Positions 6,486 through 64,000 of a DNA stretch of 64,000 bases are shown here, piece by piece (position 1 is the stretch's first letter; every line of letters starts with the position of its first letter). Made by a program: the position numbers and the translations under genes. The notes beneath the pieces were generated by a model. The model was not told the origin of the DNA. It did no database searches and saw only the letters and a list, made by a program, of their open reading frames with translations. Source of the DNA: Panulirus ornatus (lineage: Eukaryota; Arthropoda; Malacostraca; Decapoda; Palinuridae); NCBI RefSeq assembly GCF_036320965.1, contig NC_092248.1, positions 26,379,320 through 26,443,319 of the forward strand, read 5' to 3'.

Positions 6486-6622
6486 GTCTGATGACAGACG
6501 ACGACTATATGGAGATGACGGCGGGGCCTTACTTCCTCTCCGTCGGCACTAGGAACATTACCACCCCTGTCGGCCAGACCGCCTACCTCCACTGTCGGGT
6601 AGCACAACTTGGTGACTTCGCG
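6486..6622 (+). CDS. dpr-like: dpr-like exon: start of Ig domain 1
   Basis: The acceptor is a pyrimidine-rich stretch ending CACCCTCAG at 6485, and the donor is GTGAGT at 6623. The exon starts with two bases completing a split codon (phase 1) and ends in phase 0 after GDFA. It encodes LMTDDDYMEMTAGPYF, then SVGTRNITTPVGQTAYLHC (A to B strands of an I-set or V-type Ig fold with its first Cys) and RVAQLGDFA. In dpr proteins this segment ends just before the VSWIRKRDLH strand, which is what the next exon supplies. NIT is a potential N-glycosylation site. An ATG at 6491 lies inside the exon. I treat it as an internal Met because the phase and the acceptor imply an upstream exon. Confidence 0.88.
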
Positions 6623-26471: not shown

Positions 26472-26477
26472 TGAATA

Positions 26478-26517: not shown

Positions 26518-26520
26518 TAT
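26472..26520. repeat. (TA)n and T run
   Basis: A short (TA)n then a T run between converging LINE 3' ends. Confidence 0.9.
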
Positions 26521-27713
26521 ACTTTGTCGCTGTCTCCCGCGTTTGCGAGGTAGCGCAAGGAAACAGACGAAAGAAATGGCCCAACCCCCCCCCATACACA
26601 TGCACATACACACGTCCACACACGCAAATATACATACCTACACAGCTTTCCATGGTTTACCCCGGACGCTTCACATGCCTTGATTCAATCCACTGACAGC
26701 ACGTCAACCCCTGTATACCACATCGCTCCACTTCACTCTATTCCTTGCCCTCCTTTCACCCTCCTGCATGTTCAGGCCCCGATCACACAAAATCCTTTTC
26801 ACTCCATCTTTCCACCTCCAATTTGGTCTCCCTCTTCTCCTCGTTCCCTCCACCTCCGACACATATATCCTCTTGGTCAATCTTTCCTCACTCATTCTCT
26901 CCATGTGCCCAAACCATTTCAAAACACCCTCTTCTGCTCTCTCAACCACGCTCTTTTTATTTCCACACATCTCTCTTACCCTTACGTTACTTACTCGATC
27001 AAACCACCTCACACCACACATTGTCCTCAAACATCTCATTTCCAGCACATCCATCCTCCTGCGCACCACTCTATCCATAGCCCACGCCTCGCAACCATAC
27101 AACATTGTTGGAACTACTATTCCTTCAAACATACCCATTTTTGCTTTCCGGGATAATGTTCTCGACTTCCACACATTTTTCAAGGCTCCCAGAATTTTCG
27201 CCCCCTCCCCCACCCTATGATCCACTTCCGCTTCCATGGTTCCATCCGCTGACAGATCCACTCCCAGATATCTAAAACACTTCACTTCCTCCAGTTTTTC
27301 ACCATTCAAACTCACCTCCCAATTGACTTGACCCTCAACCGTACTGTACCTAATAACCTTGCTCTTATTCACATTTACTCTAAACTTTCTTCTTCCACAC
27401 ACTTTACCAAACTCCGTCACCAGCTTTTGCAGTTTCTCACATGAATCAGCCACCAGCGCTGTATCATCAGCGAACAACAACTGACTCACTTCCCAAGCTC
27501 TCTCATCCCCAACAGACTTCATACTTGCCCCTCTTTCCAAAACTCTTGCATTTACCTCCCTAACAACCCCATCCATAAACAAATTAAACAACCATGGAGA
27601 CATCACACACCCCTGCCGCAAACCTACATTCACTGAGAACCAATCACTTTCCTCTCTTCCTACACGTACACATGCCTTACATCCTCGATAAAAACTTTTC
27701 ACTGCTTCTAACA
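26500..27713 (-). mobile_element. RTE-like LINE 3' half, unit 1 of a tandem composite
   Basis: Short-UTR subfamily. The 5' end is cut inside KLLEAVKSFYRG by a (TA)n tract. The same breakpoint recurs in the copy at 28117-29320. Confidence 0.9.
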
Positions 27714-27714
27714 T
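26704..27714 (-). pseudogene. LINE RT C-terminal half, 336 codons open
   Basis: Starts LEAVKSFYRGCKACVRV and keeps [37 protein letters not shown] and RRRGRPNWRW up to VYRG stop. It lacks the fingers and the first palm Asp through 5' truncation, so it is not functional despite being open. Confidence 0.85.
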
Positions 27715-27737
27715 ATATATATGTATATATGTATATA

Positions 27738-27779
<42 letters not shown>
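27713..27779. repeat. (TA)n microsatellite
   Basis: Forms the LINE/short-element junction. Confidence 0.95.
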
Positions 27780-29317
<1,538 letters not shown>

Positions 29318-29320
<3 letters not shown>

Positions 29321-29344
29321 TATATATATGTATATATGTATATA

Positions 29345-29390
<46 letters not shown>
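29318..29390. repeat. (TA)n microsatellite
   Basis: Same position and internal TATTATA interruption as in unit 1. Confidence 0.95.
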
Positions 29391-29395
<5 letters not shown>

Positions 29396-29631
29396 CCCTG
29401 GGGATAGGGGAGAAAGAATACTTCCCACGTATTCCCTGCGTGTCGTAGAAGGCGACTAAAAGGGGAGGGAGCGGGGGGCTGGAAATCCTCCCCTCTCGTT
29501 TTTTTTAATTTTCCAAAAGAAGGAACAGAGAATTGGGCCAGGTGAGGGTATTCCCTCAAAGGCCCAGTCCTCTGTTCTTAACGCTACCTCGCTAATGCGG
29601 GAAATGGCGAATAGTTTGAAAGAAAAGAAAA

Positions 29632-29636
<5 letters not shown>
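29388..29636 (+). mobile_element. short non-autonomous element, unit 2
   Basis: Nearly identical to the member at 27778-28022 across its length. Confidence 0.82.
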
Positions 29637-29726
<90 letters not shown>

Positions 29727-29727
29727 T
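29635..29727. repeat. (TA)n microsatellite and T run
   Basis: Same role as 28021-28130. Confidence 0.95.
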
Positions 29728-30861
29728 TGCCGCTGTCTCCCGCGTTTGCGAGGTAGCGCAAGGAAACAGACGAAAGAAATGGCCCAACCCACCCCCATAC
29801 ACATGTAAATACATACGTCCACACACGCAAATATACATACCTACACAGCTTTCCATGGTTTACCCCAGACGCTTCACATGCCTTGATTCAATCCACTGAC
29901 AGCACATCAACCCCGGTATACCACATCGCTCCAATTCACTCTATTTCTTGCCCTCCTTTCACCCTCCTGCATGTTCAGGCCCCGATCACACAAAATCTTT
30001 TTCACTTCATCTTTCCACCTCCAATTTGGTCTCCCTCTTCTCCTCGTTCCCTCCACCTCCGACACATATATCCTCTTGGTCAATCTTTCCTCACTCATTC
30101 TCTCCATGTGCCCAAACCATTTCAAAACACCCTCTTCTGCTCTCTCAACCACTCTCTTTTTATTTCCACACATCTCTCTTACCCTTACGTTACTTACTCG
30201 ATCAAACCACCTCACACCACACATTGTCCTCAAACATCTCATTTCCAGCACATCCATCCTCCTGCACACAACTCTATCCATAGCCCACGCCTCGCAACCA
30301 TACAACATTGTTGGAACCACTATTCCTTCAAACATACCCATTTTTGCTTTCCGAGATAATGTTCTCGACTTCCACACATTCTTCAAGGCTCCCAGAATTT
30401 TCGCCCCCTCCCCCACCCTATGATCCACTTCCGCTTCCATGGTTCCATCCGCTGCCAGATCCACTCCCAGATATCTAAAACACTTCACTTCCTCCAGTTT
30501 TTCTCCATTCAAACTCACCTCCCAATTGACTTGACCCTCAACCCTACTGTACCTAATAACCTTGCTCTTATTCACATTTACTCTTAACTTTCTTCTTTCA
30601 CACACTTTACCAAACTCAGTCACCAGCTTCTGCAGTTTCTTACATGAATCAGCCACCAGCGCTGTATCATCAGCGAACAACAACTGACTCACTTCCCAAG
30701 CTCTCTCATCCCCAACAGACTTCCTACTCGCCCCTCTTTCCAAAACTCTTGCATTCACCTCCCTAACAACCCCATCCATAAACAAATTAAACAACCAATG
30801 AGACATCACACACCCCTGCCGCAAACCTACATTCACTGAGAACCAATCACTTTCCTCTCTT

Positions 30862-30864
<3 letters not shown>
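29710..30864 (-). mobile_element. RTE-like LINE 3' part, unit 3 of tandem composite
   Basis: Almost identical to unit 2, but cut slightly later by (TA)n, within RVGREESDW. The one clear coding difference is SMKS to SRKS. Confidence 0.9.
29907..30864 (-). pseudogene. LINE RT C-terminal part, open (unit 3)
   Basis: [40 protein letters not shown] and GRPNWRWKDEV to VYRG stop. The upstream Ile-Tyr residues come from the (TA)n tract and are not LINE protein. Confidence 0.85.

Positions 30865-30951
<87 letters not shown>
30865..30951. repeat. (TA)n microsatellite
   Basis: LINE/short-element junction of unit 3. Confidence 0.95.
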
Positions 30952-30952
<1 letters not shown>

Positions 30953-30956
<4 letters not shown>

Positions 30957-31200
30957 CCCTGGGGATAGGGGATTAAGAGTACTTCCCACGTATTCCCTGC
31001 GTGTCGTAGAAGGCGACTAAAAGAGGAGGGAGCGGGGGGCTGGAAATCCTCCCCTCTCGTTTTTTTTTTTTTTTTTTTTTTTTTTCCAAAAGAAGGAACA
31101 GAGAATTGGGCCAGGTGAGGGTATTCCCTCAAAGGCCCAGTCCTCTGTTCTTAACGCTACCTCGCTAATGCGGGAAATGGCGAATAGTTTGAAAGAAAGA
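30953..31200 (+). mobile_element. short non-autonomous element, unit 3
   Basis: As in units 1 and 2, with a longer internal T run and GGGGATTAAGAGTAC in place of GGGGAGAAAGAATAC. Confidence 0.82.
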
Positions 31201-31297: not shown

Positions 31298-34533
<3,236 letters not shown>

Positions 34534-34566
34534 CTATGAGTCCACGGGGAAAATGAAACACGATAA

Positions 34567-34612
34567 GCTCCCAAGTGCACTTTCGTGTAATAATCACATC
34601 ATCAAGGGAAGT
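34567..34612 (-). ncRNA. hammerhead-like motif, core mutated
   Basis: Minus strand: CUUCCC, UUGAUGA, UGUGAUUAUUACA, CGAAA, GUGCACUU, GGGAGC. The first core base is U instead of C; the other elements are kept. GGGAG can pair with CUUCCC. Probably inactive. Confidence 0.55.
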
Positions 34613-34678
34613 GCAAGAGAGAAATAACAGTCAGTTGATTTACAGCAAAGAGACGTAGTTAGGACGCCATTTGGTAAT

Positions 34679-37082: not shown

Positions 37083-37500
37083 CCGCCCGTGGCAATATTT
37101 CTTTCAAAACAACATCAGTGCCATAATTCCGGCCACCAATTCTCAGCATATACATTTTTGTTAGCTACGCCGTCAACACCCGCAGCCTCTCTTCCAGCAT
37201 AAGGCCATCAGTTCCATTCAATGTTTGCGCTTCATCCTGGTTCTGTAATATGTTCTTCTATGGCTTGCCAGCAGAAAACGTAATGGTAATATATTTCTTA
37301 TTTCTCGCAGTCAATTAAAGTTTCTCTATGAGAAATGGATATCGGATTTCCTCCTAATTGAAAAAGTTATTAAACAAATATCTTCCTGTAAAAGGGTTTC
37401 TCATAAATGCTACCTAAAAGGACATTATTGCTCAGATGTATTGTGCGGGAAATATTTTGATTTTGAATTTCATATGATATTTATATATTTATATATATAT
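37081..37500. other. unassigned intron DNA
   Basis: AT-rich sequence ending in a short TA run at the LINE 5' junction. Confidence 0.45.
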
Positions 37501-37510
37501 AAGGCTCAGA

Positions 37511-39025
37511 GTGGGGTGCCTAAATGTGTGTGGATGTAACCAAGATGTGAAAAAAGGAGAGATAGGTAGTATGTTTGAGGAAAGGAACCTGGATGTTTTG
37601 GCTCTGAGTGAAACGAAGCTCAAGGGTAAAGGGGAAGAGTGGTTTGGAAATGTCTGGGGAGTGAAGTCAGGGGTTAGTGAGAGGACAAGAGCAAGGGAAG
37701 GAGTAGCAATACTCCTGAAACAGGAGTTGTGGGAGTATGTGACAGAATGTAAGAAAGTAAATTCTCGATTAATATGGGTAAAATTGAAAGTTGATGGAGA
37801 GAGGTGGGTGATTATTGGTGCATATGCACCTGGACATGAGAAGAAAGATCATGAGAGGCAAGTGTTTTGGGAGCAGCTAAATGAGTGTGTTAGCGGTTTT
37901 GATGCACGAGACCGGGTTATAGTGATGGGTGATTTGAATGCAAAGGTGAGTAATGTGGCAGTTGAGGGAATAATTGGTATGCATGGGGTGTTCAGTGTTG
38001 TAAATGGAAATGGTGAAGAGCTTGTAGATTTATGTGCTGAAAAAGGACTGATGATTGGGAATACCTGGTTTAAAAAGCGAGATATACATAAGTATACTTA
38101 TGTAAGTAGGAGAGATGGCCAGAGAGCGTTATTGGATTACGTGTTAATGGACAGGCGTGCGAAAGAGAGACTTTTGGATGTCAATATGCTGAGAGGTGCA
38201 ACTGGAGGGATGTCTGATCATTATCTTGTGGAGGCTAAGGTGAAGATTAGTATGGGTTTTCAGAAAAGAAGAGTGAATGTTGGGGTGAAGAAGGTGGTGA
38301 GAGTAAGTGAGCTTGGGAAGGAGACCTGTGTGAAGAAGTATCAGGAGAGACTGTGTACAGAATGGAAAAAGGTGAGAACAATGGAAGTAAGGGGAGTGGG
38401 GGAGGAATGGGATGTATTTAGGGAATCAGTGATGGATTGCGCAAAAGATGCTTGTGGCATGAGAAGAGTGGGAGGTGGGCTGTTTAGAAAGGGTAGTGAG
38501 TGGTGGGATGAAGAAGTAAGAGTATTAGTGAAAGAGAAGAGAGAGGCATTTGGACGATTTTTGCAGGGAAAAAATGCAATTGAGTGGGAGAAGTATAAAA
38601 GAAAGAGACAGGAGGTCAAGAGAAAGGTGCAAGAGGTGAAAAAAAGGGCAAATGAGAGTTGGGGTGAGAGACTATCAGTAAATTTTAGGGAGAATAAAAA
38701 GATGTTCTGGAAGGAGGTAAATAGGGTGCGTAAGACAAGGGAGCAAATGGGAACTTCAGTGAAGGGCGTAAATGGGGAGGTGATAACAAGTAGTGGTGAT
38801 GTGAAAAGGAGATGGAATGAGTATTTTGAAGGTTTGTTGAATGTGTCTGATGACAGAGTGGCAGATATAGGGTGTTTGGGTCGAGGTGGTGTGCAAAGTG
38901 AGAGGGTTAGGGAAAATGATTTGGTAAACAGAGAAGAGGTAGTAAAAGCTTTGCGGAAGATGAAAGCCGGCAAGGCAGCAGGTTTGGATGGTATTGCAGT
39001 GGAATTTATAAAAAAAGGGGGGTGA
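37511..39025 (+). pseudogene. LINE AP-endonuclease and linker, 504 codons
   Basis: VGCLNVCGCNQDVKKGEIGS, LALSETKLKG (Glu of the endonuclease), [45 protein letters not shown] and GGMSDHYLVEAKV (Ser-Asp-His) give all the landmarks of an AP-like endonuclease in one unduplicated copy. The basic coiled linker [20 protein letters not shown] follows, then [15 protein letters not shown]. The frame stops at TGA 39023-39025 because GGGGGT has become GGGGGGT. Confidence 0.88.
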
Positions 39026-39041
39026 CTGTATTGTTGACTGG

Positions 39042-40451
39042 TTGGTAAGGTTATTTAATGTATGTATGACTCATGGTGAGGTGCCTGAGGATTGGCGGAA
39101 TGCTTGCATAGTGCCATTGTACAAAGGCAAAGGGGATAAGAGTGAGTGCTCAAATTACAGAGGTATAAGTTTGTTGAGTATTCCTGGTAAATTATATGGG
39201 AGGGTATTGATTGAGAGGGTGAAGGCATGTACAGAGCATCAGATTGGGGAAGAGCAGTGTGGTTTCAGAAGTGGTAGAGGATGTGTGGATCAGGTGTTTG
39301 CTTTGAAGAATGTATGTGAGAAATACTTAGAAAAGCAAATGGATTTGTATGTAGCATTTATGGATCTGGAGAAGGCATATGATAGAGTTGATAGAGATGC
39401 TCTGTGGAAGGTATTAAGAATATATGGTGTGGGAGGCAAGTTGTTAGAAGCAGTGAAAAGTTTTTATCGAGGATGTAAGGCATGTGTACGTGTAGGAAGA
39501 GAGGAAAGTGATTGGTTCTCAGTGAATGTAGGTTTGCGGCAGGGGTGTGTGATGTCTCCATGGTTGTTTAATTTGTTTATGGATGGGGTTGTTAGGGAGG
39601 TAAATGCAAGAGTTTTGGAAAGAGGGGCAAGTATGAAGTCTGTTGGGGACGAGAGAGCTTGGGAAGTGAGTCAGTTGTTGTTCGCTGATGATACAGCGCT
39701 GGTGGCGGATTCATGTGAGAAACTGCAGAAGCTGGTGACGGAGTTTGGTAAAGTGTGTGGAAGAAGAAAGTTAAGAGTAAATGTCAATAAGAGCAAGGTT
39801 ATTAGGTACAGTAGGGTTGAGGGTCAAGTCAATTGGGAGGTGAGTTTGAATGGTGAAAAACTGGAGGAAGTGAAGTGTTTTAGATATCTGGGAGTGGATC
39901 TGTCAGCGGATGGAACCATGGAAGCGGAAGTGGATCATAGGGTGGGGGAGGGGGCGAAAATTTTGGGAGCCTTGAAAAATGTGTGGAAGTCGAGAACATT
40001 ATCCCGGAAAGCAAAAATGGGTATGTTTGAAGGAATAGTAGTTCCAACAATGTTGTATGGTTGCGAGGCGTGGGCTATGGATAGAGTTGTGCGCAGGAGG
40101 ATGGATGTGCTGGAAATGAGATGTTTGAGGACAATGTGTGGTGTGAGGTGGTTTGATCGAGTAAGTAACGTAAGGGTAAGAGAGATGTGTGGAAATAAAA
40201 AGAGCGTGGTTGAGAGAGCAGAAGAGGGTGTTTTGAAATGGTTTGGGCACATGGAGAGAATGAGTGAGGAAAGATTGACCAAGAGGATATATGTGTCGGA
40301 GGTGGAGGGAACGAGGAGAAGAGGGAGACCAAATTGGAGGTGGAAAGATGGAGTGAAAAGGATTTTGTGTGATCGGGGCCTGAACATGCAGGAGGGTGAA
40401 AGGAGGGCAAGGAATAGAGTGAATTGGAGCGATGTGGTATACAGGGGTTGA
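39042..40451 (+). pseudogene. LINE reverse transcriptase continuation, 469 codons
   Basis: [99 protein letters not shown] and RRRGRPNWRWKDGVKR to VYRG stop. No defect is seen inside this frame. Only the single-base insertion just upstream separates it from the endonuclease. Confidence 0.88.
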
Positions 40452-43213: not shown

Positions 43214-43294
43214 CAAGTGTCCTGGATCAGGAAGCGGGACCTCCACGTGATGAGCTCAGGCGTGGTGGTCTTCGCGTCGGACCAGAGATTTCAG
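43214..43294 (+). CDS. dpr-like: dpr-like exon: Ig domain 1, C to D strands
   Basis: This 27-codon exon runs in phase 0 from an acceptor ending GTCTGCAG to a donor GTACGT. It encodes QVSWIRKRDLHVMSSG followed by VVVFASDQRFQ. WIRKRDLH and the DQRF motif are nearly invariant in insect dpr proteins, so this exon is the most diagnostic of the six. W is the core Ig tryptophan. A Penelope-like retroelement fragment ends about 70 bp upstream, so the upstream intron boundary is hemmed in by mobile DNA. Confidence 0.92.
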
Positions 43295-43689: not shown

Positions 43690-46088
43690 TACCACGTCCA
43701 CCATCCAGGAGCCAGCTTGGTACAACACCTCCACCATCCAGGAGCCAGCTTGGTACAACACCTCCACCATCCAGGAGCCAGCTTGGTACAACACCTCCAC
43801 CATCCAGGAGCCAGCTTGGTACAACACCTCCACCATCCAGGAGCCAGCTTGGTACAGCACCTCCACCATCCAGGAGCCAGCTTGGTACAACACCTCCACC
43901 ATCCAGGAGCCAGCTTGGTACAACACCTCCACCATCCAGGATCCAGCTTGGTACAGCACCTCCACCATCCAGGAGCCAGCTTGGTACAGCACCTCCACCA
44001 TCCAGGAGCCAGCTTGGTACAACACCTCCACCATCCAGGATCCAGCTTGGTACAGCACCTCCACCATCCAGGATCCAGCTTGGTACAACACCTCCACCAT
44101 CCAGGAGCCAGCTTGGTACAGCACCTCCACCATCCAGGAGCCAGCTTGGTACAACACCTCCACCATCCAGGAGCCAGCTTGGTACAGCACCTCCACCATC
44201 CAGGATCCAGCTTGGTACAACACCTCCACCATCCAGGAGCCAGCTTGGTACAGCACCTCCACCATCCAGGAGCCAGCTTGGTACAGCACCTCCACCATCC
44301 AGGATCCAGCTTGGTACAGCACCTCCACCATCCAGGAGCCAGCTTGGGTACAGCACCTCCACATCCAGGACCAGCTTGGTACAGCACCTCCACCATCCAG
44401 GATCCACTTGGTACAAACACCTCCACCATCCAGGAGCCAGCTTGGTACAGCACCTCCACCATCCAGGATCCAGCTTGGTACAACACCTTCCACCATCCAG
44501 AGCCACTTGGTACAGCACCTCCACCATCCAGGACCAGCCTGGTACAGAGCACCTCCACCATCCAGGAGCCAGCTTGGTACAAGCACCTCAACCATCCAGG
44601 AGCCAGCTTGGTACAACACCTCCACCATCCAGGATCCAGCTTGGTACAACACCTCCACCATCCAGGATCCAGCTTGGGTACAGCACCCTCACCATCCAGG
44701 AGCCAGCTTGGTACAGCACCTCCACCATCCAGGAGCCAGCTTGGTACAGCACACCTCTACCACTCCAGGAGCCAGCTTGGTACAGCACCTCCACCATCCA
44801 GGAGCCAGATTGTGTACAGCACCTCCACCATCCAGGGATCCAGCTTGTACAGCACCTCGACCATCCAGGAGCCAGCTTGGTACAACACCTCCTCCATCCA
44901 GGATCCAGCTTGGTACAGCACCTCCACCATCCAGGAGCCAGCTTGTACAGCACTCCACCATCCAGGAGCCAGCTTGGTACAAGCACCTCCACCATCCAGA
45001 GCCAGCTTGGTACAACATAACCTCCACCATCCAGGAGCCAGCTTGGTACAACACCTCCACCATCCAGGAGCCAGCTTGGTACAACACCTCCACCATCCAG
45101 GATCCAGCTTGGTACAACACCTCCACCATCCAGGAGCCAGCTTGGTACAGCACCTCCACCATCCAGGAGCCAGCTTGGTACAGCACCTCCACCATCCAGG
45201 AGCCAGCTTGGTACTGCACCTCCACCATCCAGGAGCCAGCTTGGTACAACACCTCCACCATCCAGGAGCCAGCTTGGTACATCACCTCTACCACCCAGGA
45301 GCCAGCTTGGTACTGCACCTCCACCATCCAGGAGCCAGCTTGGTACAACACCTCCACCATCCAGGAGCCAGCTTGGTACTGCACCTCCACCATCCAGGAG
45401 CCAGCTTGGTACTGCACCTCCACCATCCAGGAGCCAGCTTGGTACTGCACCTCCACCATCCAGGAACCAGCTTGGTACAGCACCTCCACCATCCAGGAGC
45501 CAGCTTGGTACAACACCTCCACCATCCAGGATCCAGCTTGGTACAGCACCTCCACCATCCAGGAGCCAGCTTGGTACAGCACCTCCACCACCCAGGAGCC
45601 AGCTTGGTACAACACCTCCACCATCCAGGAGCCAGCTGGTACAGCACCTCCACCATCCAGGAGCCAGCTTGGTACAGCACCTCCACCATCCAGGAGCCAG
45701 CTTGGTACAGCACCTCCACCATCCACGATCCAGCTTGGTACAGCACCTCCACCATCCAGGAGCCAGCTTGGTACAGCACCTCCACCATCCAGGATCCAGC
45801 TTGGTACAGCACCTCCACCATCCAGGAGCCAGCTTGGTACAACACCTCCACCATCCAGGATCCAGCTTGGTACAGCACCTCCACCATCCAGGATCCAGCT
45901 TGGTACAGCACCTCCACCATCCAGGAGCCAGCTTGGTACAGCACCTCCACCATCCAGGAGCCAGCTTGGTACAGCACCTCCACCACCCAGGAGCCAGCTT
46001 GGTACAACACCTCCACCATCCAGGAGCCAGCTTGGTACAGCACCTCCACCATCCAGGAGCCAGCTTGGTACAGCACCTCCACAATTCA
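43690..46088. repeat. 33-bp minisatellite, about 72 copies
   Basis: The unit is ACCATCCAGGAGCCAGCTTG plus GTACAACACCTCC, with AACACC/AGCACC/TGCACC and GAGCC/GATCC variants. As 33 is divisible by three and the unit has no stop in several frames, long frames are open on both strands by chance. Indels cluster between about 44340 and 45020; the rest is regular. It lies in the intron between two dpr-like exons. Confidence 0.96.
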
Positions 46089-47451: not shown

Positions 47452-47584
47452 GTAATTCACCCAGACAAGTCGGAGAACTGGACACTGCAGATCAAGTACG
47501 CGCAGCTGAGGGACGCAGGCGTCTACGAGTGTCAAGTCAACACTGAACCCAAAATGTTCATATCCTACGTCCTCAGTGTTGTTG
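47452..47584 (+). CDS. dpr-like: dpr-like exon: Ig domain 1, E to G strands
   Basis: The acceptor is TTCACTGTCACAG at 47451 and the donor GTAAGT at 47585. The exon enters in phase 0 and leaves in phase 1. It encodes VIHPDKSENWTLQIKYAQLR, then DAGVYECQVNTEPKMF and ISYVLSVV. W-T-L-Q-I-K is the E strand, and DAGVYEC is the Asp-x-Gly-x-Tyr-x-Cys tyrosine-corner motif carrying the second Ig1 cysteine. QVNTEPKM matches the family's G-strand region. NWT is a potential glycosylation site. No stops or indels are visible. Confidence 0.92.
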
Positions 47585-49464: not shown

Positions 49465-49554
49465 AATCCAGAGCAACCATTGTGGGGCCCGAGTACGTCA
49501 AGGCTGGGAGCACCATCAACCTTACGTGCATCATCAACCAGCTCAACATGCAAG
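49465..49554 (+). CDS. dpr-like: dpr-like exon: start of Ig domain 2 (shortest form)
   Basis: The acceptor is GTCTTGCAG at 49464 and the first donor GTACGT is at 49555. Phase is 1 in and 1 out. It encodes ESRATIVGPEYVKAGSTINL followed by TCIINQLNMQ, i.e. the A to C region of Ig2 with its first Cys and an NLT sequon. The last 39 bases of the exon plus 12 bases of intron form the unit of a 51-bp array running to about 50636. The frame therefore stays open through 21 further copies, and every copy ends in the same donor. The true exon end in mRNA cannot be chosen from sequence alone. The first donor gives the Ig2 length expected for dpr proteins. Confidence 0.85.
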
Positions 49555-50636
49555 GTACGTCACACATCAACCTTACGTGCATCATCAACCAGCTCAACAT
49601 GCAAGGTACGTCACACATCAACCTTACGTGCATCATTAACCAGCTCAACATGCAAGGTACGTCACACATCAACCTTACGTGCATCATTAACCAGCTCAAC
49701 ATGCAAGGTACGTCACACATCAACCTTACGTGCATCATTAACCAGCTCAACATGCAAGGTACGTCACACATCAACCTTACGTGCATCATTAACCAGCTCA
49801 ACATGCAAGGTACGTCACACATCAACCTTACGTGCATCATTAACCAGCTCAACATGCAAGGTACGTCACACATCAACCTTACGTGCATCATTAACCAGCT
49901 CAACATGCAAGGTACGTCACACATCAACCTTACGTGCATCATTAACCAGCTCAACATGCAAGGTACGTCACACATCAACCTTACGTGCATCATCAACCAG
50001 CTCAACATGCAAGGTACGTCACACATCAACCTTACGTGCATCATTAACCAGCTCAACATGCAAGGTACGTCACACATCAACCTTACGTGCATCATTAACC
50101 AGCTCAACATGCAAGGTACGTCACACATCAACCTTACGTGCATCATCAACCAGCTCAACATGCAAGGTACGTCACACATCAACCTTACGTGCATCATCAA
50201 CCAGCTCAACATGCAAGGTACGTCACACATCAACCTTACGTGCATCATTAACCAGCTCATCATGCAAGGTACGTCACACATCAACCTTACGTGCATCATC
50301 AACCAGCTCAACATGCAAGGTACGTCACACATCAACCTTACGTGCATCATTAACCAGCTCATCATGCAAGGTACGTCACACATCAACCTTACGTGCATCA
50401 TCAACCAGCTCAACATGCAAGGTACGTCACACATCAACCTTACGTGCATCATTAACCAGCTCAACATGCAAGGTACGTCACACATCAACCTTACGTGCAT
50501 CATTAACCAGCTCAACATGCAAGGTACGTCACACATCAACCTTACGTGCATCATTAACCAGCTCAACATGCAAGGTACGTCACACATCAACCTTACGTGC
50601 ATCATTAACCAGCTCAACATGCAAGGTACGTCACTC
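49513..50636 (+). repeat. 51-bp minisatellite made from exon 4's 3' end plus its splice donor, 22 copies
   Basis: The unit encodes HINLTCIINQLNMQ, then G-T-S with CAAG|GTACGT inside it. The first copy is the exon end itself (with GSTINLTC). Twenty-one more follow, giving potential donors every 51 bp from 49555 to 50626. Because 51 is 17 codons, the reading frame is open from 49465 to 50654, where TGA follows GTSLSRGKH. Copies differ only at a few sites (ATC or ATT before AACCAG; AAC or ATC before ATGCAA). Each added unit would contribute one Cys and one NLT sequon. Confidence 0.95.
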
Positions 50637-51654
50637 TCACGAGGCAAACACTGACATGACTCAATAATATTTCTTGCAGTAACTGTGTGTACCAGACATT
50701 ACCCAGGAGACGTATGTGGCCAACTGTTTGCCACCACCAAAAGCCAATGCGTTTTCGGTTTATATGAAGATGATTACTTAAGGATCTTGTCTTGCGAGTG
50801 TCAGATTATGATGTTGATACATTTCTAGTTTTCATATCACCAATCATATGATTTCTTTATTGTAAATGATTTAAACAATCAGTATCTAAACAGTGAAATT
50901 GCTTACAAATCTGACCAAAACGGTAAACTACCATTTCTATAATTTCCACAGGAAAGTCAGGCAACTTCCTTAGCGCATCAATTGATAGGAAAATCCATGT
51001 TCACGAGTTTGGAAAAAATAACAATGAATTACAATGTAGCTTCATTTGTACTGTAGTAAATAGAGCCCATCATGTAGCCCCAGTTGGCACAAACCTCTAT
51101 CCACTACATTCTCTTCCACTAATCGTTTCAGCTGGTTTTCCGATGAATCGTAATGAAACACCTAAAAGCAATCAACTCTGTAAACTCATCAGTCCTTTAA
51201 AAAGCAGACAGTGATAACAAGAACGCAATAGTATTTAATCCTAACCCTTTCGTTGGTTATCAAAATAATACCATTAGAAACAATTTGTCAACTTTTGTTT
51301 CTTCCGGAGTTTCCACTGAAATAACGCTTGTACCTAGATTTAAATATACAACCCTACAGTTGTCTAGTATGTATCGCATGTGTGAGGGCTACTGTTAGGT
51401 AAGATGACCAGGTACCAAAGAAGTGGCAATTCCATGACTGACGTGGTCACTCCTCGAAGTTGCTTTCGTGGTAGAAGGAAAGAGACCGAAGCTTGGCTCC
51501 CTAGTATATCAAGGAATACAAAGGAATTAAAACAGTTACAGACAGTTGTGTCTTTTCAAAGCTGTTTGTGTTAGTGAAAGATATAAGAAACACAAAAATG
51601 TGTAATAAAAGTTAGAAGACATACAAATAATTCAAAGAGAAAAACCAACAAATA
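50637..51654 (+). other. intron sequence after exon-derived array
   Basis: No feature recognised. There are some PLE-like AT-rich stretches, but none I can support. Confidence 0.4.
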
Positions 51655-52425
51655 GTCATTTTGACTATGGAGGCGCAAACAATGAAACTCGCTGAATTGA
51701 AGCGAAGTGTTTATCAAGTCTGTTCTTAAAAACTACTATTGAAGAAAAAGTACTTCGACTCATTCGAGATAGATCGTTTGCCCGCGAATATGTCTCCATT
51801 ACTATGAGTAAAATCAGACGAATCGAGTCTTGGGTAACTTGATAGATCAATGTTATTAAAGCATTTGATCATTTCAAATACGTTAATTAGATTACCTCTT
51901 AACCCTCTCTTTTCAAGCTAGATAGACCCACGTCGTTTAATCTGATCTCGTACCATTTGTTTACCAGCCTGGGAATCATACTGGCAGCCCTATACTGTAC
52001 TATATCCATTGTCAAATTCTCTTTTTCAGGTAGAGTGACCGAAACTGAACACAACATTCAAGATGTGGACGAACAAATAAACTGTAGAGAGTAAGGATGA
52101 CTGCGAAGGCTTTACCTATGTAACCAAGAATTTTGTTTGTTCTTTTCACTGCTTCTGTGCACTGCTCACTTGGTTTTAGTTCACCAGAGATTATTACACA
52201 TAAGTCTTTCTTCATCATTTTCATTTTGTAGTTCAACAGAATTCATACAGTAGCTTGCCGTTTCGTTTTTACTTCTCATATGTAAAACTTTGCACTTATC
52301 GATATTCGATTTCATTTCCCACCTATGAGCACAGTCTATTGGTTTGTCTATGTTAATTTGAGGCGTCCCTATTGTGCTACAGTGGAAAAATCTTATTTGA
52401 ATAAGTGACAAGAGTCAAGCCCTGT
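51655..52425 (-). pseudogene. CR1-like LINE reverse transcriptase C-terminal remnant
   Basis: Out-of-frame pieces in order: CAHRWEMKSNIDKCKVLHM, VIISGELKPSEQCTEAVK, KILGYIGKAF, LYSLFVRPHLECCVQF, LYLKK, VVFKNRLDKHFASIQ. This is the connection or thumb region that follows the RT palm in CR1-type LINEs (NxxKCxxxxF/H, LGxxxS, RPxLEYxxxxW). It is a different family from the RTE-like copies, much older and full of frameshifts. Confidence 0.75.
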
Positions 52426-53525
<1,100 letters not shown>

Positions 53526-53553
53526 GATTGGCTCAAGATATCTTTCATGTTAG

Positions 53554-53745
53554 GTTTAGTGTACTGGTACCACAACCGGGACATCCTGGACTACGAGGGT
53601 ACAGTGAGGATCAGTACACGGGAGAACCACGAGGGCACTGTCTCCCACCTCACCATCAAGGAGGCTACACCCAAGGACTCAGGCAACTACACCTGCTGAC
53701 CCACGTCTGCACACGCGGCCTCCGTCATCATTAATGTTGTCGAAG
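53554..53745 (+). CDS. dpr-like: dpr-like exon: rest of Ig domain 2, with in-frame TGA
   Basis: It encodes (G)LVYWYHNRDILDYEG, TVRISTRENHEGTVSHLTIK, EATPKDSGNYTC, stop, PTSAHAASVIINVVE, ending in phase 1 before donor GTATGT at 53746. YWYHN, DSGNYTC and SAxxASVxxxV are dpr Ig2 signatures. The TGA at 53697-53699 sits directly after the second Ig2 Cys, where family members usually have Ser before Pro; TCA would differ by one base. Both sides of the stop are in the same frame and well conserved, so this is a point change (allele, consensus error or recent pseudogenisation), not a frameshift. Two acceptors six bases apart, TTAG|GTTTAG|TG, both keep the frame. A 104-bp (GA)n tract ends 31 bp upstream. 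Confidence 0.85.
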
Positions 53746-54600
53746 GTATGTATTATGTCACTTTATAATGAGATGGTCTTGATCAGGGCGTTCACTCACC
53801 CGTGCACTCTCTGCTAACTTAGCGGTTACAACAGAAGTCAATATAAGTGTTAGAGTATTTACTATGACAATTTAGAACAGGAATGTTTCCCTGGTGTAAG
53901 GGGCGCTTTGTGAAGTGAGTGGCGTTTATGATCCAGGTGATCTAATGACACATAAGTAACCTAATAGTTATACGAATCATAATTTGCAGAGAACTTGGAG
54001 AGAGTGGAACATGGGTCTCTTACTGAATGCAAGTCATGTAGTTGTAAAGAGGAGTCATAACATAGTCCACTTACCGACTGAGACAGTTGAAAGTTATGCA
54101 GATGATGCTTGCTATGTTCTTCCTAATACACGATCATTGTCTTAAGGTCAAACGTGACTGCGGAACTTGCAGTGTTAGGCAGGACTTAGTCGCAAAGCTT
54201 GCGTGCCTTGGAGAATTAGATCCTAAACTTTAATAAAGAAAGCACAAATATGTTCGTACTAAGATCTTTATAGTGCTATGACACAAGATACTGAAGTATG
54301 CTTTAACAATGATCATTTAGATGTGTGAATGTGTAAATGTCGTGTGACATATTAGCATTCACCGCTGCCACAAACCCTTCTACTTACACCATATCAAAAT
54401 GTTTCATCTTTATTGTTGATGCCACATCATAATGTGTGGTAAGCTTACGTTCCTGCAGGAGTTCATGGCACAGTAATCATTCAAGGTGGAGGAGCACAAG
54501 AAGAAATACACAAGGAATAAAGCTAGAGTACAAAAACTGAGTATTGTGAACAGGGTGTAACCAGAGTGCTTGGAGGTGGTGGTGTAGTCGACTGTACAGG
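53746..54600 (+). other. unassigned intron DNA
   Basis: No element recognised between the exon donor and the 34-bp array. Confidence 0.45.
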
Positions 54601-55345
54601 AGTGAGAGGGTGTGGAGCATCATGTTGTTGTGGGTATGAGAGGGTGTGGAGCATCATGTTGTTGTGGGTGTGAGAGGGTGTGGAGCATCATGATGTTGTA
54701 GGAGTGAGAGGGTGTGGAGCATCATGTTGTTGTGGGTATGAGAGGGTGTGGAGCATCATGTTGTTGTGGGTGTGAGAGGGTGTGGAGCATCATGATGTTG
54801 TAGGTGTGAGAGGGTGTGGAGCATCATGATGTTGTAGGTGTGAGAGGGTGTGGAGCATCATGATGTTGTAGGTGTGAGAGGGTGTGGAGCATCATGATGT
54901 TGTAGGTGTGAGAGGGTGTGGAGCATCATGGCGTTGTAAGACACAGGGGGTGTGGAGCATCATGTTGTTGTAGGTGTGAGAGGGTGTGGAGCATCATGTT
55001 GTTGTGGGTATGAGAGGGTGTGGAGCATCATGTTGTTGTGGGTATGAGAGGGTGTGGAGCATCATGATGTTGTAGGTGTGAGAGGGTGTGGAGCATCATG
55101 ATGTTGTGGGTGTGAGAGGGTGTGGAGCATCATGGCGTTGTAAGACAAAGAGGGTGTGGAGCATCATGTTGTTGTAGGTGTGAGAGGGTGTGGAGCATCA
55201 TGTTGTTGTGGGTATGAGAGGGTGTGGAGCATCATGTTGTTGTGGGTATGAGAGGGTGTGGAGCATCATGTTGTTGTGGGTGTGAGAGGGTGTGGAGCAT
55301 CATGGCGTTGTAAGACACAGGGGGTGTGGAGCATCATCATGTAGG
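54601..55345. repeat. 34-bp minisatellite, about 22 copies
   Basis: The unit is GGTGTGGAGCATCATGTTGT plus TGTGGGTATGAGAG, with TGATGTTGTAGG variants. A distinctive GGCGTTGTAAGACA variant recurs at about 54930, 55134 and 55304. Confidence 0.95.
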
Positions 55346-55919
55346 AGATGAGGCGTTGCAGATGGATGGATCTGACGAGGAGGAGAAGCTGAGACACCAC
55401 AAAAAGGTGAGTGCGAACGATGCATGTAATCAAGGAGAGTGTTTGTTGACATTTTAGCTGAACTGTTGAAACTGATTGTTGAAGGAAGTTTTATATTGTG
55501 GAGACTGATGTGCTTCTTAAGAAAGAACAGAAACATAAACTTCAGAGAAGAGCCAGATATTACTGTATTTCGAGGGACGGCAAGTGTGTACTACAGCAAG
55601 AAAAACATAGTTGTAGTTGATGTTGTCACTGACTTGCAGTCTTGTGAAGATGGTTCAAAGCCTACTGGAGCATTAACGAGGAAACGTACAATAAACAAGT
55701 GAAGTAATATGATTTTTCAAAACAAAGGAAGTCGAACCAAACTAGGGCTAAACAAATAACATTAACCAATGTTTGCTGAAGGTAATGAATGTGTCATCTT
55801 GCTTTTATCAAAGAAAGATAATCTTTTCATGAAAATATAGAGTTCTGTACAATCACTCCCAGCAATGTAAGTTACGCAGTCACATTTAACTTTAAGACAA
55901 TAATCGTGTATTAGAAAGA
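55346..55919 (+). other. unassigned intron DNA
   Basis: A frame at 55439-55702 has no recognised domain and no splice context I can support. Confidence 0.4.
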
Positions 55920-57272
55920 ATCAACTCAGAAGATGTATAGATGTATCAACTCAGAGGATGTATAGATGTATCAACTCAGAGGATGTATAGATGTATCAAC
56001 TCAGAGGATGTATAGATGTATCAACTCAGAGGATGTATAGATGTATCAACTCAGAGGATGTATAGATGTATCAACTCAGAGGATGTATAGATGTATCAAC
56101 TCAGAGGATGTATAGATGTATCAACTCAGAGGATGTATAGATGTATCAACTCAGAGGATGTATAGATGTATCAACTCAGAAGATGTATAGATGTATCAAC
56201 TCAGAGGATGTATAGATGTATCAACTCAGAGGATGTATAGATGTATCAACTCAGAGGATGTATAGATGTATCAACTCAGAGGATGTATAGATGTATCAAC
56301 TCAGAGGATGTATAGATGTATCAACTCAGAGGATGTATAGATGTATCAACTCAGAGGATGTATAGATGTATCAACTCAGAGGATGTATAGATGTATCAAC
56401 TCAGAGGATGTATAGATGTATCAACTCAGAGGATGTATAGATGTATCAACTCAGAGGATGTATAGATGTATCAACTCAGAAGATGTATAGATGTATCAAC
56501 TCAGAGGATGTATAGATGTATCAACTCAGAGGATGTATAGATGTATCAACTCAGAGGATGTATAGATGTATCAACTCAGAGGATGTATAGATGTATCAAC
56601 TCAGAGGATGTATAGATGTATCAACTCAGAGGATGTATAGATGTATCAACTCAGAGGATGTATAGATGTATCAACTCAGAGGATGTATAGATGTATCAAC
56701 TCAGAGGATGTATAGATGTATCAACTCAGAGGATGTATAGATGTATCAACTCAGAGGATGTATAGATGTATCAACTCAGAGGATGTATAGATGTATCAAC
56801 TCAGAGGATGTATAGATGTATCAACTCAGAGGATGTATAGATGTATCAACTCAGAGGATGTATAGATGTATCAACTCAGAGGATGTATAGATGTATCAAC
56901 TCAGAGGATGTATAGATGTATCAACTCAGAGGATGTATAGATGTATCAACTCAGAGGATGTATAGATGTATCAACTCAGAGGATGTATAGATGTATCAAC
57001 TCAGAGGATGTATAGATGTATCAACTCAGAGGATGTATAGATGTATCAACTCAGAGGATGTATAGATGTATCAACTCAGAGGACGTATAGATGTATCAAC
57101 TCAGAGGATGTATAGATGTATCAACTCAGAGGATGTATAGATGTATCAACTCAGAGGATGTATAGATGTATCAACTCAGAGGATGTATAGATGTATCAAC
57201 TCAGAGGATGTATAGATGTATCAACTCAGAGGATATATAGATGTATCAACTCAGAGGATGTATAGATGTATC
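55920..57272. repeat. 25-bp minisatellite, about 54 copies, very homogeneous
   Basis: The unit is ATCAACTCAGAGGATGTATA plus GATGT. Only a handful of variants exist (AGAAG three times, GGACG once, GATATA once). Confidence 0.97.
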
Positions 57273-57898
57273 GATGAAAAAAGTTTTGGTTCTTCATGTT
57301 CATCATTAAAACTTGCGATGAGCTGGTATTCCAAGGGTATATCTGTTTTGTGAAAATTAGATCATCTTTTTACTTACTGAATTTCTGTTTTAGGTCTTAA
57401 GTGATGGTGTATTATTTGCAATGAGAATATGAAAGGCACGTGTAAGTGGCTCGATCTTCCGTGCTTTCACTTCTGAATCTACTTATGTATTGATAGATGG
57501 TCGTACAAAGATTCCCTTCAGAAGCTGAATCGAAAAAGGTATAAGGTAGAATTAAGAATAGAACAGATCTATGTAATGAAACTCAGCATTATTCTGACGT
57601 TTGTTAATGTGCATTGAAATGACCAATTATTGGCGTTAACATCAACAACAGATACTGGTTATGAATACATTATCTTTAATATTATCCTAAAGTTCTTGAG
57701 AGCCGTAAGTGGAGTCATGTGAACAGTTTGGTGTATGCAAAACTAAACATGAGAATTTCTTGAACATTGTGAGCTTACAGACACAAGATTGTGGTACTGC
57801 TACAAAAATAGTGAATGCTGCCGTGTATTGTAGAGTAGGCTGAGGGAGGGAGGGAGTGAGTCGAGGATATTCCTCATGTTGTGTTGTACTTCCTGCAG
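57273..57898 (+). other. intron sequence before the last dpr-like exon
   Basis: Unique sequence with a short GAGGGAGGGAGG patch near 57843; no element seen. Confidence 0.45.
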
Positions 57899-58020
57899 GA
57901 GAGCAGCCGGCAGCTATGCAGACCGGCGGTGGCAGCAGAGCCAGCCATTGCATGTCACTCCTGCTGGTGTTGTTACAGACTCTTGGTCTCCTCTTCACAC
58001 TCCAGCCGGAGCACAGATGA
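57899..58020 (+). CDS. dpr-like: dpr-like last exon: GEQPAAMQ tail and hydrophobic C-terminus
   Basis: The acceptor is TTGTACTTCCTGCAG at 57898. Entry is phase 1 and the exon ends in TGA at 58018-58020. It encodes (G)EQPAAMQTGGGSRASHC, MSLLLVLLQTLGLLFTL, QPEHR. The G-E-x-P-A-A-M-Q motif right after Ig2 is typical of dpr proteins. The following hydrophobic run near the C-terminus, preceded by small residues (GGGS), fits a GPI-attachment signal or a short terminal anchor; no long cytoplasmic tail follows. The GPI assignment is inference. Confidence 0.88.
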
Positions 58021-58198
58021 TGAACTAGCGGAGGTCGGGTGAGCGAGGAGAGGCTCGGGGAGGTCGCACCCCAGACGACATCTAACGCTACGCGATAATA
58101 AGACTTGGCCTTCTGTGCCATATATGCTACACCCTATGTAAACATTAAGTCATGCTGCTCAGAAGTCACACACAGATGTCATATCTTTCTTAAATATC

Positions 58199-58268
58199 AC
58201 AACCTCCTCAGATATCACAACCTCCTCAGATATCACAACCTCCTCAGATATCACAACCTCCTCAGATA
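58199..58268. repeat. 18-bp tandem repeat, about 4 copies
   Basis: ATATCACAACCTCCTCAG repeated downstream of the stop codon. Confidence 0.9.
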
Positions 58269-58611
58269 TATTGCACTCTAATGCATGTTGTCACTCTATC
58301 ACATCCTGCAAATGATATCACGTTCTACTTACATGAAATACCATATCATATGATGTCAAATTGTCACTTATTACCTATGCACTCTATTCTATCTTAACAT
58401 CATACTTCATCACAGTGTCCTACATTAAGAAAGATGTCACAAGTACCTAAGCGTTACATCCAAATTAGATTTATTACGTCACGTTACGATGTTACACCGA
58501 ATTAGAGACGTCACACGCTATTTCGACAGCATCTCATACCTTGACGCTATATCCAAAAATACAATGTCTCTCCAATCCACAGACAGCACACCTTACCACA
58601 GATGTTATACG

Positions 58612-58755
58612 ATACCTTGACATTACATCATACCAAGACAACATACCTTGTTGAAAAATAACATACATTACCACAAATGTTCTACAATACCTTGACATTA
58701 CATCATACCAATATAACATATCTTGTTGAAAAATAACATACATTACCACAAATGT
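58612..58755. repeat. 69-bp direct duplication, 75-bp period
   Basis: ATACCTTGACATTACATCAT through CATTACCACAAATGT occurs twice with three or so differences. Confidence 0.9.
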
Positions 58756-59595
58756 CACGTTTTACTACGTATGTTGGACGCTACCAAGACATCACACTGA
58801 AGTCAATCATACCTCATCATAGAGTATCAAGTCTAATCACAAATATCATAACCTTTCAAGACATCACAGCCTTCCAAGACGTCTTTCCCCATCATCCATC
58901 ACATCTCACTACAGATGTCATAATCTATCTTGGCACCATAGCCTCCCTACACTTCATATATCATAACACAACTTCACATGATAAAATATACGTCATCTCC
59001 GGTCACAACATCCTGCTAAAGTCACAGTCCGCCATAAACATCACACCTCAGCAAACGGTTCACAATGCCCTTTTAACACCATGTGTGATGTCACACTTGG
59101 CCATAATATTTCTCACTTTTTGATACCGGACCTAGCCGTCAGCCAGCCATAAATAATGTTTTGATTGTTTTATAAGCTTATCACAGAGTGTATGGGATGA
59201 GTGTTGCTCATCCGCATGACGAGGGTATCATGGAAAACAATGTATATTTATGTATATTAATGTGCTGTTTATTATGTAAATAGAGTAAGCATATAGATAT
59301 ATATTTCATGTGATGTACATAGTACTTATCAGTGTTGGAAATATTGCCCTGGGTTGGTTAAGAGGGTTGTTACACTCTGTTCTGGCAGAAATGTCGAGTG
59401 TTGCAAACCATCATCCTGCATGCGATTCATGCAACACTCTAAGGTGTTGTCTTCTCCTGGTCATGTGCAGCTCAACACTCGACATATATCTCCGACAGCA
59501 CTCGGGTGTTGCGCTGGTCTTTTCACGTGCAGCTCAACGCCCACCACTTGAAAGTATCGTAGCTACTCTCGCTTTGTTACTGTAGTGGAAGTATC

Positions 59596-59601
59596 AATAA
59601 A
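59596..59601 (+). terminator. candidate polyadenylation signal AATAAA
   Basis: This is a canonical AATAAA about 1.58 kb past the dpr-like stop codon, on the same strand. It is plausible but unproven, since such hexamers are frequent in this AT-rich DNA. Confidence 0.25.
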
Positions 59602-60710
59602 TAGTCTCAAAAATTTTCATATATCTCCCTTCATTCACCTCCAGATTTTCAGATTCAGATTCAGTTCAGGTCATAATATCAGTAAACGAGAAATAAATCA
59701 AACATATGTATACTCTGAGATGATATATACATGTCCAAGAATTCTTTAAAACCTTCAAGTCTTTGAATCCTGGAGTGCTTTCAAGTCCAGAGATTTGCAA
59801 TTGTTCAGAAGTGTCCATAGATCTCGAATATCTCCATATAGTGAGCTGATCTGACCTAGGAATTTCATAGGACTCTCTAGCGTTTTCATGAAAGCCTTAC
59901 GTTCTAGTGAATACTTGCACTTTTAGTGGAATATCTGTGAATCCTAGAATAGGAATCATCGTAAAAGGATTTGGTCGAACGCCATGATACGATGAACGTC
60001 ATCAGGTGTTCAAGTGCCTGACTTGGTGAATATCTGGACCTCAAGTTATCCAGTCATGAAAGTTGCTGGAACCAACGAAGCTCGTAATGTTCCTGGAACT
60101 TCTGCAGGAGCTCGAGGTAGGAAGATTCCTTTTCATATTTGGGACTTCATATGTCCCGAGGATTCTTTGATCATTGAACATCCATGTATCATAGAATGTG
60201 TGAGTATACCAAAACGTCTTTTTTTGTTATGAAACATTTGCTCTAGATACGTTGCGTCTACTTTTTCATCCTTCATCCCGAAAGGTTTTAGAAAAGTAGA
60301 TTAAATCCACTCAACATCGAGCGGATCCTGTGTGAGAAAGTCCAATGTCCTTCCCAGGAGGAACAAGGAAACTCGCCTCCACTAGCAGGTGCGGAACGTT
60401 TGCGTCCCTGATCTCTCTGCAGCATTTCAAATCGTAAATTGTCCATCCTCTGCTCTGTAACTGAGCATTCTCCCAGTCAGATGGACCAAGATAGTTGCTC
60501 CAGGGGAGACCAGCGAAATACATGTAACACCGATCGTAATGGCTATCTCTGGATGTAAAATTGTTCGTCAAAACTTCATTGTGGTAAAGTTTGTACGACA
60601 AAAAAGTTAATATAAGATGACTATGATACGTATTTTACAGATTTCCCTTGGCATTAAGGATTTCCATATGGCAGCCATGAAAAATAAAGTACAACTGACC
60701 GCGTGATTAA

Positions 60711-60873
60711 GTATATTCTTATGAGTCCACGGGGGAAATGAAACACGATAAGCTTCCAAGTGCACTTTCGTGTAATAATCACATCATGATCCAGGGGAGA
60801 TACAAGAAAGAAATATAACAGGCAGTTGATATACAACGAAGAGACGCAGCTGGGACGCCATTTGGTAAATATA
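60711..60873 (-). mobile_element. Penelope-like element terminal fragment
   Basis: Matches the non-coding terminus of the copies at 23521 and 34530, from CTTATGAGTCCACGGGG to GGGACGCCATTTGGTAAA, then stops. Confidence 0.82.
60752..60801 (-). ncRNA. hammerhead-like motif, core disrupted
   Basis: CGAAA and GUGCACUU with GGAAGC are kept. The CUGAUGA box is split by inserted bases (CUGGAUCAUGAUG). It should be inactive. Confidence 0.5.
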
Positions 60874-60874
60874 A

Positions 60875-61622
60875 ATGTCCATACACGCACAAATACATGC
60901 ATATACATATCTACATACACACACACACACACAAATATATACATATATGCACATGTACCTAATCATACTTACTTGCCTTCATCTATTCCCGGCACTGCCC
61001 CGTCCCGCAGGAAACAGCATCACTACCCCCTGCTTCAGAGGGGCAGCGCTAGGAAAACAGACAAAAATGGCCATATTCGTTTACACTCAGTCTCTAGCTG
61101 TCATGTGTAATGCACCGAAACTACAGCTCCCTATCCAGGCCCCACAAAACTTTTCGTGGTTTATCCTAGACGCTTCACATGCCCTGGTTCAGTCCATTGA
61201 AAGCATGTCGACCGCGGTATAACACGTCGTTCCAATTTACTCTTCCTTGCACGCCTCTCACGCTCCTGAATGTTCAAGTCCCGATTGCTCAAAATATTCT
61301 TAACTCCATCATTCCACCTCCAATTTGGTCTCTCGCTTCGCCTTGTTCTCTCTACCTATGACACATATATCCTCTTTGTCAATCTTTCCTCACTCATTTT
61401 CTTCATGTGTCCAAACCATTTCAACACACCCTCTTCTGCTCTCTCAACCACAGTCTTTTATTACGTTTTCATTATTACCCTTTCATTATTACCTTTCATT
61501 ATTACCCTTTTATTACTTACTCGATCAAACCAGCTCACATCACATATTGTCTTCAAACATTTTATTTCCAACACATCCACCCTTCTCCATACAACACTAT
61601 TTACAGCCCATGCCTCGCAACC
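60875..61622 (-). mobile_element. diverged RTE-like LINE 3' fragment, long-UTR type
   Basis: A long-form UTR (CAGCGCTAGGAAAACAGAC, TCACTCAGTCTCTAG-like blocks) is followed by an antisense RT C-terminus up to the CATGCCTCGCAACCA block (AWAMD/GCEA). It is more diverged than the other copies and includes a local TTTCATTATTACC triplication near 61470-61510. Confidence 0.8.
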
Positions 61623-63866
<2,244 letters not shown>

Positions 63867-63868
63867 TT

Positions 63869-64000
63869 ATTGACTGAAGCAAGGTCATTGATTATTGATT
63901 CTAACTCCAGTAACAAGAGAAATATCATTGAATCTTCAATTATTGAATACACTAAGAGTTATAAACTTAATATTAGTGAAAGTCTATACAAATTGTATAA
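63869..64000 (+). mobile_element. Penelope-like element C-terminal fragment, cut by window end
   Basis: In one frame, [20 protein letters not shown] then [15 protein letters not shown], the segment after the GIY-YIG domain seen in the copy at 23700-23912. It begins directly at the (TA)n tract. Confidence 0.8.

Follow-up and report, generated by a model that had tools for sequence, protein, structure and literature searches.

The gene contained in the stretch of Panulirus ornatus DNA analyzed here (the window, 64,000 nt) is, judged by its sequence, a member of the Dpr/zig-8 family of two-Ig adhesion proteins, and an in-frame UGA codon in its second Ig domain appears to be recoded, most likely by translational readthrough. 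The preferred reading, to which a probability of about 0.6 is assigned, is that splicing from the first of 22 tandemly repeated donors removes a minisatellite array from the transcript and that a former Trp codon has become a UGA that is read through in part, which would result in an anchored and an unanchored form of the protein.

Assignment to the family is based on structure, domain and protein searches. The Ig2 pieces find their best solved-structure match in Drosophila Dpr4 (6eg0, E 9.9e-20), with Dpr2 also matched, and score above the cut-off for six Pfam Ig families. Relatives of the zig-8-like type align across both Ig1 and Ig2 in the protein search, in which the public model P0001, annotated as “zwei Ig domain protein zig-8-like [Panulirus ornatus],” shows 100% identity over 90% of the query. 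Residues 39-233 of P0001 map collinearly onto the window in a tblastn search, with mismatches confined to alignment overruns of exon edges, while no convincing tblastn match to residues 1-38 was found within the 64,000 nt. The exons of the gene span more than 47 kb in the window (Table 1).

Table 1. Positions in the window of the exons, the first donor, the repeat array and the in-frame stop codon of the Dpr/zig-8 family gene.
Feature	Position	Strand	Basis or remark
Exon Ig1a (LMTDDDYMEMTAGPYFLSVGTRNITTPVGQTAYLHCRVAQLGDFA)	6486..6622	+	tblastn of P0001, 100% identity; boundaries read from the sequence
Exon Ig1b (QVSWIRKRDLHV...RFQ), donor CAG/GTACGT	43214..43294	+	tblastn, exon reading
Exon Ig1c (VIHPDKSENW...YECQVNT...LSVV), phase 1 end	47452..47584	+	tblastn, exon reading
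Exon Ig2a (ESRATIVGPEYVKAGSTINLTCIINQLNMQ), phase 1 end; final 41 bases are array copy 1	49465..49554	+	tblastn
51-bp minisatellite, 22 copies, each with donor AAG/GTACGT	49514..50634	+	TRF, donor list, identical 9-mers
First donor GTACGT, used by public model P0001	49555..49560	+	P0001 reads ...NLTCIINQLNMQ-GLVYWYH...
Exon Ig2b (GLVYWYHNRDILDY...DSGNYTC-stop-PTSAHAASVIINVVE), phase 1 at both ends	53554..53745	+	tblastn, exon reading
In-frame TGA, next base C	53697..53699	+	codon after the Ig2 F-strand Cys; 46 bases before exon end
Terminal exon past the TGA: GEQPAAMQTGGGSRASHCMSLLLVLLQTLGLLFTLQPEHR, then stop; hydrophobic C-terminal tail	57899..58020	+	tblastn of P0011 and P0004

In the window sequence, exon Ig2b reads TGC TGA CCC, the stop following immediately upon the F-strand Cys of Ig2, and it is with this Cys that P0001 ends. 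An earlier sequence-only reading of the stretch, which had been concerned with the repeated donors, did not mention the TGA at 53697-53699, though it lies in the exon that every one of these donors would join. Twelve of the 293 proteins retrieved end in Cys and, among the matches listed, all 12 do so at the position of the terminal Cys of P0001. Ten of the 12 come from seven species, belonging to Panulirus, Procambarus, Homarus, Portunus (4), Petrolisthes, Eriocheir and Chionoecetes, genera of the Reptantia (lobsters, crayfish, a porcelain crab, and crabs). Among the matches listed, Trp occupies the site in 12 relatives of the same group, including Penaeus (5), Macrobrachium (2), Palaemon, krill, an isopod and an amphipod, and in 13 proteins of the sister group, including Eriocheir, Scylla, Cherax, Panulirus and Procambarus. 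Consequently, Trp is regarded as the ancestral residue at the site; no same-group reptant protein with Trp at this position was found among the matches listed. The codon itself was read in the DNA of P. ornatus, the other species being represented here by their protein ends.

A sequencing or assembly error at the TGA is unlikely, as 11 other proteins end at the same residue. A pseudogene is likewise thought unlikely, since the exons found are intact save for the TGA and other species show an identical protein end. The contigs behind two of the stop-bearing proteins are no longer than 2,402 and 1,672 bases. As the exons are spread over more than 47 kb in P. ornatus, these short contigs most likely represent spliced RNA, in which case the stop would be present in the mRNA. 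A stop located 46 bases before the last junction seen may escape junction-dependent decay.

The history of the stop was studied in trees built without the stop site itself. On the first tree, comprising 37 of 199 proteins (including 7 of 12 sister-group rows), the stop label requires four changes, at least two of which are forced by well-supported branches when P0019 and P0026, in whose models the site is missing, are scored as non-stop. On the second tree of 24 rows, from which P0018, P0019, P0026, P0028, seven sister rows and the insect proteins P0027 and P0130 were dropped, the label requires three changes, and well-supported branches force one. A single clade of stop-bearing proteins was weakly rejected (AU p 0.036, 24 rows), in a comparison of short sequences that includes weakly placed rows such as Portunus P0015. 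A single origin in the form of one clade is therefore not supported (four or three changes; AU p 0.036), and both one origin followed by losses and several origins remain as candidate histories.

Downstream of the TGA, the frame of P. ornatus stays open for 55 codons over two exons, crossing a phase-1 intron: PTSAHAASVIINVVE is followed by a phase-1 donor at 53746 and then by exon 57899-58020, which contributes GEQPAAMQTGGG and a hydrophobic tail before the frame closes at a stop after ...PEHR. The tail exon was located by tblastn with the krill protein P0011 (E 0.002) and with P0004 (E 0.048). Its tail, judged by eye, is of the GPI-signal type and is encoded only past the in-frame TGA. The first 25 residues past the TGA are identical at 20-21 of 25 positions to each of 11 Trp-bearing relatives (P0028, nearly identical to P0004, was left out), with alignment scores of 81-96 as against shuffle maxima of 15-31 (500 shuffles per relative). 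The corresponding values for the 25 residues just before the TGA are 12-20 of 25, which does not constitute a rate test, as the comparison was ungapped before the stop and gapped after it. A C-terminal Arg is shared by the lobster downstream frame and all 11 compared relatives. Between the TGA and the end of Ig2b there is no AG apart from the final two bases and, consequently, no 3' splice site can keep PTSAHAASVIINVVE while skipping the TGA.

In the proposed scenario, the Trp codon after the F-strand Cys of Ig2 would have become UGA in the P. ornatus gene independently of the array. Some ribosomes would then decode UGA-C as an amino acid, resulting in a complete Ig2 with the GPI-type tail and hence in a membrane-anchored protein; the inserted residue may well be Trp, a near-cognate that would restore the ancestral state. 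The remaining ribosomes would terminate and yield a protein with an intact Ig1, an incomplete Ig2 and no anchor, the fate of this short form being conjectural. Readthrough is abundant in Pancrustacea, and TGA with a 3' C is overrepresented among its ancient cases (PMC5100048); in human MDH1, both Trp and Arg are inserted at UGA (PMC5133446). In addition, readthrough of premature-stop reporters was described to peak in fly neurons (PMC7244557). The stop context of the lobster gene, TGA CCC, corresponds to the leaky UGA-C, and the stronger UGA CUA motif is absent. The presence of UGA CCC rather than UGA CUA argues against readthrough: when position +5 or +6 of UGA CUA was altered in human cells, readthrough fell to 0.4-0.8% (PMC5133446). 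In a study of Anopheles, stops found only among close relatives were set aside as probable products of recent nonsense mutation, and a second ORF with an exon break was put down to alternative splicing (PMC5100048); the downstream frame of the lobster does cross an exon break, which also speaks against readthrough. No stable structure was found 3' of the TGA (z -0.46; 65 of 200 shuffles fold as well).

In flies, the majority of the Dprs and DIPs tested carry a GPI anchor, soluble forms were noted in hemolymph (PMC10863630), and the Dpr-DIP interface is located in IG1 (PMC6374074). Taken together, these properties lead to the hypothesis of a switch between unanchored and anchored protein. The odds are put at about even that the reptant Dpr stop has been kept in several paralogues and species, perhaps after repeated fixation, as a recoding switch by which a single mRNA sets how much of the wiring cue is soluble and how much is anchored. 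Provided that the codon is indeed recoded, the present models of these lobster, crayfish and crab genes are truncated, and translation would control the anchoring of a synaptic adhesion family. The gene would then be a clear example from nature of a stop taking the place of a sense codon while the downstream frame is kept.

RNA editing is common in neurons, and A-to-I editing by ADAR would convert UGA into UGI, which is read as UGG (Trp), thereby bringing the ancestral residue back in some of the neural mRNAs. Editing would yield precisely the codon for the residue that the relatives keep, and fly Dprs act in neurons (PMC10863630). Editing is nevertheless considered unlikely, as the target A has a 5' G and ADAR activity on such sites is very low (PMC8809894). 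Moreover, no convincing complementary sequence is present: the best duplex within 51000-57000 (-57.3 kcal/mol), in which the stop region pairs with a 34-bp intronic array (54598-55337) near 54600, was equalled or beaten by 5 of 60 shuffles. The stop is still present in the two short contigs taken to be RNA, so that editing in these two cases, if it occurs, can only be partial. Alternatively, the stop might be final, the proteins having become shorter and unanchored and the post-stop sequence being a relic. Indeed, all 12 public models end at the site, and secreted relatives exist, the secreted cDIP having been used as a control (PMC10863630). This outcome is judged distinctly improbable in light of the intact state of the P. 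ornatus downstream frame, its phase-1 junction, the tail exon and its end. Crabs and lobsters diverged hundreds of millions of years ago, and a neutral relic of a stop shared by both should have decayed, an argument that loses force if the stop had several origins, with a recent one in the lobster. Petrolisthes P0026 keeps a GEEPAAMQTGG tail, which also counts against a final stop, although this protein sits on a long branch, is of unsure placement and may not bear the stop.

Alternative splicing is common in large arthropod genes and could avoid the TGA, for example via a second Ig2b-like exon, and P0026 is indeed a model that omits the TGA stretch. The absence of an internal AG, however, means that the conserved PTSAHAASVIINVVE cannot be retained without the TGA, and only one Ig2b exon was found in the window by tblastn, among the matches listed, which makes this explanation highly improbable. 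Insertion of selenocysteine at the UGA would fit a UGA with conserved coding beyond it, but has to be regarded as exceedingly improbable: the ancestral residue is Trp rather than Cys, and the nine Rfam matches obtained for 53500-64000 at an E of up to 5 include no SECIS family, in a search whose sensitivity for SECIS may be limited. Readthrough of the UGA is retained as the preferred reading.

The preferred reading also includes removal of the array at the end of exon Ig2a by splicing. The sequence-only reading had described this array as 22 copies of a 51-bp unit with the same donor in each copy, which was confirmed. TRF reports a single array here, extending over 49514-50634 with a period of 51, 22.0 copies and 98% matches. 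The 22 occurrences of CAAGGTACGT in the window run from 49555 to 50626 at a spacing of 51 bases. In 22 of 22 donors, the nine bases AAGGTACGT are identical, and they match the consensus at eight of nine positions. While the unit length of 51 bp stands, its proposed division into 39 exon and 12 intron bases does not, as the unit consists of 41 bases of exon end and 10 bases of intron start. The acceptor proposed to be shared by all donors indeed opens a phase-1 exon, Ig2b, but its position has to be amended: the site yielding the conserved G-L-V-Y-W sits just before 53554. A frame open throughout the array had also been claimed and was found, three of six frames being free of stops across it. 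However, the 21 inter-donor units fall into three types only (13, 6 and 2 units), and with nearly identical copies and a period divisible by 3, the open frame represents a single observation rather than 22. A control array of 33 bp at 43693-46082, outside the exons of the gene, has two of six frames free of stops; the open frame was therefore rejected as evidence of coding.

At the junction in question, P0001 reads INQLNMQ-GLVYWYH, which means that this model joins the donor at 49555 to the acceptor before 53554 and that the array is intronic in it. The length of the Ig2a/Ig2b junction is the same in 17 of 19 aligned database rows, P0001 included. One of the two deviating rows, P0019, is a second P. 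ornatus gene on another contig whose model ends just past the junction (NMPGKVSM); the public model of this paralogue leaves its Ig2b exon, along with any stop therein, without annotation. The other, P0026 from Petrolisthes, has 20 extra residues at the junction that bear no resemblance to the array unit. Array units are absent from all 293 proteins retrieved, among the matches listed. These were obtained with a 590-residue isoform of 22 units as the query of the array-unit search (candidates of about 325-1030 aa, best 120 of 1248 matches) and in two further protein searches (about 91-407 residues; best 120 of 307 and best 120 of 2275).

Two outcomes had been offered in the sequence-only reading, namely a length-variable Ig2 produced by donor choice, or a first donor that always wins, with the others as decoys. 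The use of 49555 by P0001 and the equal length of 17 of the 19 rows favour the latter, and we infer that the first donor is also the one used in the animal. The former is without positive support, no array-unit protein being present among the 293 (among the matches listed), and is unlikely on the sequences compared. Its probability, which is separate from that of the explanations of the stop, is put very low. Choice among the donors would let Ig2 vary by 0 to 21 units of 17 residues, and such a mechanism is conceivable insofar as all 22 donors are identical and in frame and SRSF1 can favour intron-proximal donors (PMC5585400). P0026, moreover, carries a predicted extension at the very same junction, albeit of 20 unrelated residues. 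Against it stand the public model and the 17 of 19 aligned rows without inserted residues as well as the lack of array-bearing proteins noted above. In addition, each unit would repeat a strand and a Cys, which would hardly be compatible with one Ig fold, and the TGA at 53697 would be encountered by isoforms of any length. Short-anchored RNA reads cannot separate the donors, as all copies share the last 41 exon bases. The array probably arose by tandem duplication of the end of exon Ig2a together with the first intron bases, followed by expansion. Splicing would normally take the first donor and remove the array with the intron, leaving the protein unchanged. The array is probably a spliced-out DNA stutter, and it shows that a gene of a conserved family can harbour a minisatellite with 22 donor copies while its annotated product is not evidently affected.

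Nine arrays with at least seven copies and a period of at least 10 cover 11,127 bases, or 17.4% of the window (TRF), and an array touching an exon edge is therefore judged not very improbable here. A very large number of satellite DNA families has been described in decapods (PMC10454600), with which this coverage is in line. A second array near an exon edge of the same gene, with a 28-bp unit in 72 copies, occupies 4432-6428 and ends 57 bases before exon Ig1a. An (AG)52 run at 53420-53523 ends 30 bases before Ig2b and leaves little room for a branch point and a pyrimidine tract. The window further contains many copies of a putative retroelement on both strands (10179-16343, 25260-31016, 33371-34630, 37478-40451, and 61362-63533), including 751 aa of open frame at 14088-16343, and several copies are joined in frame to (TA)n runs. 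Their ORFs are presumably endonuclease-like and reverse-transcriptase-like, judged by their motifs.

Among the titles listed in a literature search, none concerned a decapod Dpr stop or a minisatellite multiplying a splice donor. Internal tandem repeats that change gene structure were described in PMC2812944, and the lobster array resembles them in this respect. Compared by description, it differs from the human cases given there in that its unit spans an exon end and a donor and that all copies are in frame. With Drosophila Dpr4 (6eg0) and ZIG-8 of C. elegans, the lobster gene shares two Ig domains, an Ig2 of the Dpr type and a hydrophobic tail, and the GEQPAAMQ that follows its Ig2 is found in the Trp-bearing relatives as well. 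Unlike these family members, it has a stop ahead of the last Ig2 stretch and the tail, and an array at the Ig2a donor.

Ir75a of Drosophila sechellia, known as the pseudo-pseudogene, is reportedly subject to readthrough. In this neural gene, as in the lobster, a premature stop interrupts the ancestral frame, and the gene was once called a pseudogene (PMC7244557). Ir75a concerns one gene in one species, whereas the protein end described here recurs in 12 proteins and several paralogues, for which readthrough is postulated. Parallels are also offered by the pancrustacean readthrough genes (Jungreis et al., 2016; PMC5100048), a set in which the crustacean D. pulex is among the species with abundant readthrough and in the main text of which the word dpr does not occur. 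Like those genes, the lobster gene has a UGA followed by C and conserved coding past the stop. In those genes, readthrough extends the protein beyond a stop that is its annotated end; in the lobster, by contrast, the stop replaces an ancestral Trp within a domain, and readthrough would restore the protein together with its tail.
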